Shown piece by piece: positions 19,902-59,281 of a DNA stretch of 64,000 nucleotides. The notes under the pieces are model-generated. The model had not been told where the DNA came from, did not search any database, and saw only the letters and a program-made list of their open reading frames with translations. The stretch comes from Bdellovibrio sp. BCCA. GTDB lineage: Bacteria; Bdellovibrionota; Bdellovibrionia; Bdellovibrionales; Bdellovibrionaceae. The DNA lies in NCBI RefSeq assembly GCF_037996825.1, contig NZ_JBBNAC010000001.1, positions 558,001 through 622,000 on the forward strand. Direction: 5' to 3'. Each line of letters starts with the position of its first letter. Position 1 is the first letter of the stretch. The position numbers were made by a program, and so were the translations under genes.

Positions 19902-20535
19902 GCGCGGTATCTTCAAGGGGCGAAAGACGGCTGTCTTTCTTGCGTAACTTAAAGACAGGTTTTTTCAAGGCTACACGCACTTCTTCCCAGCTTTCTTTTG
20001 GTGGCTTCTCATTGAGCCATTTCAATGTTTCTTCTCTCGCCAATAAATTTCCCCAATTCCAATCGTCAAGAACCGGAATTTCTACTCGCGAATTTCCTAA
20101 AAGTGCCTGTATTGTCGAGTAGGGATATTCTTCCACCTTTTGACAAAGGCCTGCTTCAACTGGATTTCGATAAACATATTTATAAGCGTGAAGGTAGTAC
20201 TGTGGAGAGCCTAAAAGACTTCTGTGGAATCGAGATCCGTAAGTCTGGTTGATTCGCGAACTCAGCTGAGTGATGTCACGACTTGTTTCGCGCATGAAAA
20301 ATTGCATGGCTTGACTGAGATTTCCCTCGGGAGTTCTTACAATCATATGAAAGTGATTACTCATTAGCACAAATGAGTGCACGCGAATGTTGAAGGCAAG
20401 ATGAGTAAAGTGCAAATGAAGGCACATGATTTTCCAGACAAGTGGCATTTCGAGTGAAAACCAATCTCTGTTAATACATCGGGCTGTGACGTGATACGGA
20501 AGTTCGGTGTGATTTTCAAAAATTTTTCTAGGCAT
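19897..20535 (-). CDS. REP-associated tyrosine transposase (Y1_Tnp, RAYT)
   Basis: The 212-residue protein carries the HUH metal motif in LMSNHFHMIVRTPEG (H61, H63) and the catalytic tyrosine region YKYVYRNPVEAGL (candidate Tyr120) typical of IS200/IS605-related TnpA-REP proteins. These process single-stranded repeat hairpins. The gene is complete. It lies antisense to the flagellin genes and within perfect inverted repeats. The ribosome binding site is weak (ACGGA). Confidence 0.92.
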   Translation of the reverse strand: MPRKIFENHTELPYHVTARCINRDWFSLEMPLVWKIMCLHLHFTHLAFNIRVHSFVLMSNHFHMIVRTPEGNLSQAMQFFMRETSRDITQLSSRINQTYGSRFHRSLLGSPQYYLHAYKYVYRNPVEAGLCQKVEEYPYSTIQALLGNSRVEIPVLDDWNWGNLLAREETLKWLNEKPPKESWEEVRVALKKPVFKLRKKDSRLSPLEDTAL

Positions 20536-57579: not shown

Positions 57580-57670
57580 CTTAGATCGAAACTATGTTCT
57601 TCAATCTGGTATTTTGTGGTTACCTTTGATTTTTATGGGTTAGTAAAATAGTAAATTGTTAAATATAAAC

Positions 57671-57739
57671 GCAGAGACAGTTGCGCGTTTTTCCGCCATC
57701 CGTGAGCAAGCTGTTTCCCGCTCTTCCTGAGCGGGAAAG
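57671..57739 (+). repeat. left 69-bp imperfect terminal inverted repeat
   Basis: Bases run from GCAGAGACAG to GCGGGAAAG. Compared with the reverse complement of 59101-59169 there are nine mismatches, with the outer ends identical. The inner part TTTCCCGCTC ... GAGCGGGAAA forms its own hairpin. Confidence 0.8.
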
Positions 57740-57756
57740 GAAAACACACGTATAGC

Positions 57757-58812
57757 TTAAGTCCGAGTTCCATTTCCATCTTTGATTGCCAATAATCCCC
57801 AGCGCTGAGCTGCGTGAAGATTGTGGGCTCGACACAGCACTCTTAAGTTTCCTGAGGTATCCAATCCACCAACGGCCAATGGTATAAGGTGATCGATCTG
57901 AAGTTGATAAGTACTTTCGCATTTCTTTCCGCTTTGAGGATGCGTATATTCACAACGTTGATTCGCTTTTTTCAAGAGCGCTCTTTTTAGAGTGACTTTG
58001 AGATTCTTTCTTTTTCGCTGAGCCAAGAAACTGTGCGTTGAGGTTAAGGACCCAGTAATCCCTAGTAAAGCATCCGAATGGTTCGACAGCTTTAGTTCAC
58101 GAATGTCGGCGTTATTAAAATTTTTAGTTTCTGACTTTTCCAATTCGTTAGCTTCAATGATTCGTTTAGGCGGTTTTATCCTTTGGTTCGATATTTTTCC
58201 CATTTCTTTCTGAATATGCTTTTCGGCCAGCAGGGTAATTAGCTCTGCCCAATTTCCATCCGGTAAAACATGAGACAACAAATCTTTAGCCTGTTGCAGA
58301 GTTTTCATTTGGTCTTCTGTGAAAGTTATCTCCAGACGAACACTATTATCTTGTTGAGGTTTGATCACTTCGTGAATTTGTATCGGCAGGTTAAATTCCT
58401 GAGCCAAATACTTTTGAGTTTCAAAGCTGGACTTGTTTTGAATCTCTTCTAAAATTTGAGTTGTTTGGTGAATATCAACTTTATTGCCAAGTTTGATTTC
58501 CTGCTTAATACACTTTTGAACTTGGGTGAGCTGAGTCAAATTCAATGAACCTTCTTCGAGCTTTTCCGCGACTGTCGGCACTTGTTTTAATACTCGAGCG
58601 GCCTGCAATCTGCGATAGGCACTATCTTCGCCATAACCTAAGTGCTTCGTGAGGTATTTAAACATAGAATCAAACCCTAGCTCGGCATAAAGCCTCCGAG
58701 CTTCTACTTCGTTGATGTGGCATAAAATCAAGTGTGTGATTTTCCTTTCCGTTCTGACGAGTTTTTCCAAACGAACTAACAATTCAGAATTAGTAACTTT
58801 TGAAAGATCCAT
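57757..58812 (-). CDS. HNH endonuclease (DUF222-type N-terminal domain)
   Basis: The 351-residue protein has a helical DUF222-like N-terminal region (LVRTERKITHLILCHINEVE, YLTKHLGYGEDSAYRRLQAARVLKQVP) and a C-terminal HNH domain: D307-H308 in LQIDHLIPLAVGG, N322, then C-R-A-H at 327-330, with the additional cysteines C287 and C298 that could bind zinc. The ATG at 58812 has GGGAGC five bases upstream. Genes of this type are widespread as selfish or repeat-associated nucleases. Here it lies between long inverted repeats. Confidence 0.88.
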   Translation of the reverse strand: MDLSKVTNSELLVRLEKLVRTERKITHLILCHINEVEARRLYAELGFDSMFKYLTKHLGYGEDSAYRRLQAARVLKQVPTVAEKLEEGSLNLTQLTQVQKCIKQEIKLGNKVDIHQTTQILEEIQNKSSFETQKYLAQEFNLPIQIHEVIKPQQDNSVRLEITFTEDQMKTLQQAKDLLSHVLPDGNWAELITLLAEKHIQKEMGKISNQRIKPPKRIIEANELEKSETKNFNNADIRELKLSNHSDALLGITGSLTSTHSFLAQRKRKNLKVTLKRALLKKANQRCEYTHPQSGKKCESTYQLQIDHLIPLAVGGLDTSGNLRVLCRAHNLHAAQRWGLLAIKDGNGTRT

Positions 58813-59100
58813 AATTGCTCCCACATTGCAAATCTAGTTTAGGTAGATTTCTTTTCGGAAAAAGTTGTATCACAGGTTTTAAATTTCCATTTTTGCGGTT
58901 TTTTGAAAGAACGAACTAAATTAGCAGAGAGTCTTCGGTAAGCTGTTAATGCTCATAAACATTCCGTGGTACAGACAAAATATTCAAAGTGAGATCCACC
59001 GTGTGTTTCGCATAATCGTTTATCCTCACGCATTTAAAAAAGTACGAAATACCGTCAAGCATTTTCTGCATTCAATGATTATGAATTTAAAATAAATATT
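58813..59100. other. gene-free 5' region inside the HNH element
   Basis: There is no credible gene. The stretch is A/T-rich, more so than neighbouring genes. It presumably contains the promoter for the minus-strand HNH gene. Between the right repeat (ending 59169) and the lipoprotein gene (59282), a further 112 bases also hold no gene I can see. Confidence 0.5.
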
Positions 59101-59169
59101 CTTTCCCGCTCAGGAGGAGCGGGAAACGGCTAGCACATGGATGGCGGAAGACCGTGCAATTGTCTCTGC
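59101..59169 (-). repeat. right 69-bp imperfect terminal inverted repeat
   Basis: It is the partner of 57671-57739, and ends ...TTGTCTCTGC. The distal ten bases at both ends are perfectly conserved, as expected for recombinase- or nuclease-recognised tips. Confidence 0.8.
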
Positions 59170-59281
59170 TGGATTAACGCCAAGTTTCTTGAAAGCGCGA
59201 ATTTCAAATTTTATAAAATAGATTTCACCTTTCACACAATGTGAGGCTCAAGATAAATTTTTTTCTTAATTTTAAAGACTA

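Follow-up and report, generated by a model that had tools for sequence, protein, structure and literature searches.

A nuclease gene between inverted palindromic repeats in Bdellovibrio: one mobile element or two overlapping repeat families?

We asked whether an HNH endonuclease gene and the two long inverted repeats that frame it in a Bdellovibrio genome make up a single mobile unit, as proposed in a preliminary description of the locus, or whether they belong to different repeat families. The window (the whole stretch of DNA analysed, 64,000 nucleotides) comes from contig 1 (positions 558001-622000) of the 4.01-Mb genome G000. A repeat search placed the inverted arms, 69 nt each and identical at 60 of 69 positions, at 57671-57739 and 59101-59169. 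Ungapped inverted matching of the two flanks gave a best score of 51, against at most 14 in 60 shuffles, which confirms the repeats with nine mismatches that had been described. The parts of the locus, with R denoting the repeat that forms the arms, are as follows.

57580-57668, no strand: left junction zone, from the convergent coiled-coil gene to R arm 1, without alignment to the empty site
57669-57745, plus strand: R arm 1, a REP-like two-hairpin palindromic repeat (repeat search, covariance-model match of 85 bits, hairpin covariation)
57757-58812, minus strand: HNH endonuclease gene, 351 aa from ATG (ORF and Pfam; HNH residues invariant in 28 homologs)
57790-58008, minus strand: C-terminal HNH nuclease domain with C287, C298, D307-H308, N322, C327 and H330 (Pfam, homolog alignment, model)
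58387-58761, minus strand: N-terminal helical domain (DUF222-like), modelled as a ParB/Noc/Spo0J-like DNA-binding domain (AlphaFold2 model and fold search)
58813-59094, minus strand: 5' non-coding part of the mobile unit, with a TTGACG motif also found upstream in paralogs (paralog comparison)
59095-59171, minus strand: R arm 2, inverted, 60/69 identical to arm 1 (repeat search and covariance model)
59172-59281, no strand: right junction zone, from R arm 2 to the lipoprotein gene

The tip of arm 1, GCAGAGACA, points outward and its inner edge lies 12 bp from the HNH stop codon, while arm 2 has its inner edge 283 bp ahead of the ATG, at the position where paralogous units begin (an alternative GTG start at 58824 would give 355 aa). 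Between the arms, ORF and Pfam analyses found the HNH ORF alone and no transposase. The earlier reading of a single gene of the DUF222-like/HNH kind stands, with the Pfam HNH match above its cut-off (24.7 bits against 21.4) and the DUF222 match just below its own (21.1 bits, E 2e-4, against 24.4). Elsewhere in the window, a Y1_Tnp (RAYT-like) gene is located at 20236-20505 on the minus strand.

The distribution of R was determined with a covariance model built from ten R copies. The internal hairpins suggested for each repeat are present: all 10 pairs form in each of the 10 copies, and 7 of these pairs show compensatory changes. The model detects about 14 strong sites in G000, 57 matches in G022 and few in most other genomes, so the repeats are not unique, uniqueness having been named as a finding that would refute the mobile unit. 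Nine of the roughly 14 sites in G000 have no HNH gene, and R was found at just one of 80 HNH loci not chosen for R, in that case within the coding linker of an HNH gene of G020. Since most R sites are free of HNH genes and most HNH loci are free of R, R is neither needed for HNH dispersal nor restricted to it. Inverted R doublets with spacers of 20-121 bp and no HNH gene inside occur at four further G000 sites and at one in G018; the doublet at 1921732-1921897 of G000 has no HNH gene nearby, and the same applies to the other non-HNH R sites checked. R is thus not a terminal repeat of the HNH gene but an independent family of REP-like two-hairpin repeats. The R copy of the G020 gene (L105:2280-2356) preserves the reading frame, and a 90% identical paralog (L106) is free of the insert.

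The two families do meet more often than by chance. R lies within 1 kb of an HNH gene at 5 of 14 R sites of G000, a genome with nine HNH loci (P about 3e-8), the same trend is seen in G022 (P about 5e-4), and R is usually upstream of the gene where both occur. R sometimes travels with the HNH unit: G000 has two pairs of paralogs whose duplicated segment runs from the R tip to the HNH stop codon, so that R, although outside the gene, was copied along. This co-occurrence, the close framing of the gene in the window, the duplicated segments that begin at an R tip and the presence of Y1 transposases in G000 would all suit a single R-HNH-R element, in which R serves as terminal inverted repeats and movement depends on the nuclease or on a transposase acting in trans. 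We nevertheless consider such an element improbable, given that the majority of R sites and of HNH loci lack the respective partner, that other HNH copies end at the stop codon, and that the locus in the window is the only one found at which inverted R copies closely frame an HNH gene (at contig 9 of G022, two R copies accompany an HNH gene in direct orientation). Moreover, a different palindrome flanks those Y1 genes that were inspected. R did not match the DNA around any of the three G000 Y1 genes, no listed Y1 position in the genus coincides with a listed R position, and no RAYT gene was found beside R; mobilisation of R by Y1/RAYT was accordingly rejected.

The conserved hairpin with its compensatory changes, the usual position of R upstream of the HNH gene and the closeness of the HNH domain to that of IscB/Cas9d would also be expected if R were a structured RNA that serves the nuclease gene as partner or regulator, in the way that omega-RNA works with IscB. 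This is very improbable, because most HNH loci lack R and R lies mostly away from HNH genes, occurs in either orientation and sits inside coding sequence in G020. The protein also lacks the RuvC part, with an IscB score of 24.3 bits against a cut-off of 175. R had no match in Rfam either, and its assignment to a known RNA family was rejected on that ground.

R has other neighbours in G022, where same-orientation copies lie between small BrnT/BrnA-like toxin-antitoxin gene pairs (L166:78-4965 and L167:2473-5853) in an arrangement that resembles a cassette array without an integron integrase. No match to the integrase IntI (TIGR02249) exceeded the cut-off in 24 genomes, and the integron/attC reading prompted by these arrays was rejected.

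The HNH gene, for its part, is a dispersed family. Most of the 24 genomes of the genus contain between 1 and about 20 matches, with a range that starts at 0, and 92 loci were studied. G009 has twelve full copies that share a segment from about -265 relative to the start codon to about the stop codon. The upstream part of this segment contains a TTACCACCGC(A/T)TCGGT motif that is conserved, together with TGTCAT repeats and TTGACG. Paralog comparisons in other genomes gave similar limits, with the L105/L106 pair aligning from -290 to the stop and the L110/L200 pair from -270. The inner edges of the R arms in the window (-283 and +12) coincide with these limits, and the HNH unit therefore fills the spacer of an apparent R doublet. 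Between paralogs dN/dS is 0.08-0.20, so the protein is kept under purifying selection. Carriage by phages, plasmids or viruses was rejected, as no relatives were found in collections of such sequences.

Genes around the insertion in the window were located by tblastn in 20 relatives. In none of the 20 is an HNH gene present beside the PilZ-type gene, so the site is not occupied in all relatives, as a second condition named for refuting mobility would have had it. The coiled-coil gene is found in the same order in nearly all of them. In the nearest relative, G020, the coiled-coil gene, a collinear lipoprotein gene and the PilZ gene follow one another without HNH, and only 48 bp separate the aligned end of the coiled-coil gene from that of the lipoprotein gene. 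This short gap takes the place of the whole R-HNH-R region and carries a GGTACC hairpin with runs of A and T on its sides. The 96-aa lipoprotein had been suspected to be a casualty of the insertion, but it is uninterrupted and collinear at the G020 empty site (76% identity, residues 8-96) and is thus not a product of HNH insertion. G020 is too diverged for the intergenic DNA to be aligned, and exact borders at the window site can therefore not be drawn. A Y1 gene of G000 (L134) is flanked by GGTACGGCGTACC-type palindromes, which are similar to the hairpin of the G020 empty site.

From an evolutionary viewpoint, multicopy dispersal and empty sites show the HNH unit to be mobile. The part of the preliminary description that proposed a mobile unit is thereby upheld for the HNH gene with its empty sites, but not for the 69-bp repeats as its ends, given their presence at 1 of 80 HNH loci. 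Likewise, the search of the genome and its relatives returned several HNH copies and empty sites as anticipated, but neither shared R ends nor a consistent short target duplication. One and the same site carries HNH genes in several species (L197, L203, L254 and L230), apparently of different subfamilies, which suggests repeated insertion or replacement there.

Occupied and empty sites in other genomes were compared in order to characterise the junctions (L236 was left out because its flank is rearranged in G003). At L195 of G016, a 1.09-kb insertion lies in the loop of an intrinsic terminator with 2 bp replaced relative to G014, the flanks being 90-91% identical. The L199 insertion, also compared with G014, comes right after the stop codon of the upstream gene and shows a 17-bp direct repeat with about 84 bp replaced. 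About 62 bp were replaced at L252 (G007, compared with G001 and G004), where a strong hairpin is absent, and about 16 bp at L235 (G006, compared with G003 and G010), at a small hairpin. The resolved junctions are hence imprecise, with 2-84 bp replaced, and often at hairpins. Apart from the 17-bp case of L199 there is no clear duplication at L195, L252 or L235. Such irregular junctions are unlike the products of a transposase, as judged from the sequences compared. HNH genes avoid divergent promoter regions, with divergent intergenic placement in 11/86 cases against 62/179 (P 1e-4). Exact inverted repeats of at least 12 nt frame 9 of 89 HNH loci, compared with 1.3 expected; their sequences are unrelated, and some include terminators. 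In two species (L246 in G017 and L231 in G005), HNH units lie between other long inverted repeats, among which is a CCCACATC...GATGTGGGTTTTTT terminator.

Microsatellites are a further feature of the unit borders. Exact arrays (period 3-9, at least 20 nt, at least three copies) were scanned at the 92 HNH loci. Nineteen arrays lie within 250 bp past the stop codon, 27 lie 250-500 bp before the start codon and 11 more further upstream, out to 1,250 bp, with none beyond on either side. Within 400 contiguous kb of G009, all 10 arrays are at most 1 kb from one of the three HNH genes of that stretch, and as a control, 321 kb of other DNA contained one array. In 24 genomes, 10 of 12 (GATA)5 array sites are beside HNH genes (P about 1e-21, a rough count). 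The remaining two belong to genomes without a detected HNH gene (L275, G001:829154-829189, and L276, G002:2290755-2290790), and these (GATA)n arrays are possibly scars of lost HNH units. Many different array units occur at both borders of HNH units (L093, L094, L100, L102, L023, L019, L196, L203, L219, L236, L239 and others). As the left and right arrays of one locus mostly differ in unit, they are not remnants of one invaded array, and insertion of HNH into pre-existing microsatellites was rejected. A contig search was run with a profile of 8 closer homologs, the 28-homolog profile being too diverse. Microsatellites were rare at the 19 HNH loci that it returned, all from metagenome-assembled genomes, a scarcity that may reflect assembly. 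An array does occur at -313 in L303, a locus from a different lineage. The HNH copy in the window carries the R arms at its borders in place of microsatellite arrays.

These arrays also bear on the idea that the HNH gene has a host role in defence or restriction and spread by ordinary duplication, with repeats gathering in its neutral surroundings. Purifying selection on the gene and the weak similarity of its HNH domain to McrA-type restriction enzymes would agree with it. Arrays are, however, almost absent from the remaining DNA of these genomes, including intergenic DNA, the position and number of copies vary between species (0 to about 20 matches), and a conserved partner gene was not noticed, so we regard a host role of this kind as quite unlikely.

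The protein itself offers a possible basis for the choice of sites. Residues C287, C298, D307-H308, N322, C327 and H330 are invariant in the 28 aligned homologs. In the AlphaFold2 model (mean pLDDT 76, pTM only 0.42), the helical and HNH domains are predicted with confidence and are joined by a disordered linker. The modelled HNH domain is similar to that of IscB/Cas9, to nicking HNH enzymes and to enzymes of the McrA type; IscB/Cas9d is the closest, and the McrA-type similarity is weak. With residues 18-142, all top ten VIA-align matches were ParB, Noc or Spo0J, at Z 7.8-9.1 over ~100 residues, although for a helical domain Z scores below 13 possibly reflect a common arrangement alone. The model is thus suggestive of a ParB/Noc-like DNA-binding fold in the N-terminal domain. 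The DNA-binding domains of ParB, Noc and Spo0J bind palindromic sites.

Overall, we favour, with a probability of about 0.5, a reading of the window site as two nested repeat families, with the HNH unit inside R arms because such units land in palindromes via break repair. The HNH gene with its own 5' region of about 283 bp is one copy of a dispersed transposase-free nuclease unit, and the 69-bp arms belong to the independent R family and are arranged as in its inverted doublets elsewhere in G000. The unit would most likely have come to lie between the arms by landing in palindromic intergenic DNA, such as terminator hairpins and REP-like doublets. We infer that targeting of palindromes by the protein, cutting and repair-driven copying account for its spread: the ParB-like domain would bind palindromic DNA, the HNH domain would nick or cut at the bound palindrome, and host repair would install a new HNH copy at the break. 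This repair would be imprecise: short stretches of the target would be lost, a duplication of fixed length would not arise, and new simple repeats would form at the junctions. Dispersed R copies may also act as portable homology. For the HNH unit, the mechanism that appears most likely is that its own nuclease acts on palindromic DNA and that the damage is then repaired imprecisely; the lack of a strong hairpin at the L252 empty site counts against landing in palindromes. In its general form, the proposal that the ParB-like and HNH fusion targets palindromes (terminators and REP-like doublets) and that error-prone repair copying creates the border microsatellites is put forward tentatively, as one possibility. 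If true, one gene family would account for nearly all simple-sequence repeats of these genomes.

The type of the arms sets a limit on the nested reading. In the R doublets examined at other sites, one hairpin is of A type and the other of B type. The arms in the window are both of B type, and simple insertion into an existing doublet is therefore not certain. Since R can enter HNH loci, as in the G020 gene, the arms could instead be later arrivals: the HNH unit would have come first, and two R elements would have been added at its repeat-prone borders, either independently or by inverted copying. We keep this order of events as a strong rival because both arms are of B type (they are 87% alike), and it is consistent with the move of R into the linker of the G020 gene, with R on one side alone in G000 and G022, and with the unrelated repeats that unit borders gather (two-sided microsatellites, and the inverted repeats and terminators of L246 and L231). 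On the other hand, the arms have the outward-tip doublet layout of HNH-free R pairs and both sit at the unit edges, and two independent arrivals with matching orientation are less economical than one insertion. A later arrival of R thus appears less likely, and we retain the nesting of the unit within an R doublet as the preferred reading. Palindromes and nuclease units are in either case to be told apart, their overlap being easily misread as one transposon.

Several known systems share features with this locus. REP13E12 of Mycobacterium is listed as a repetitive element (PMC10589994). Like the HNH gene of the window, REP13E12/13E12 is a dispersed repeated gene of the DUF222-HNH kind, but the hosts here are Bdellovibrio and the DUF222 match of the window protein is below the cut-off. 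To our knowledge, the mobility of the REP13E12/13E12 family has no explanation, and we know of no report of palindrome framing or microsatellite borders for it. Our results suggest, in testable form, how DUF222-HNH genes, which are repeated in mycobacteria and in these predatory bacteria, may spread without a transposase. They also tie bacterial microsatellites to one nuclease family, a link for which the literature searched held no report.

R shares with REPINs (PMC3116915) the inverted doublets with a short spacer, the palindromic and extragenic nature and the compensatory changes. It differs in arms of about 70 nt with a large second hairpin, in a low copy number in G000 and in that no RAYT (Y1) transposase gene was found beside it. 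A mobile unit in a REP-like palindrome is also known from REP-targeting insertion sequences such as ISPpu9, ISPsy8 and others (PMC1525189), whereas the HNH unit has no transposase, no terminal repeats and imprecise junctions. It shows neither the shared terminal inverted repeats of insertion sequences and MITEs nor a transposase within the element, and it is not an IscB, which would be a full RuvC and HNH protein, as its HNH part alone matches. Free-standing HNH homing endonuclease genes have no transposase and presumably spread via break repair. The HNH unit resembles them in being a transposase-free nuclease gene with presumed spread by break repair, but it occupies many unrelated intergenic sites instead of one cognate site and is predicted to carry a ParB-like domain.
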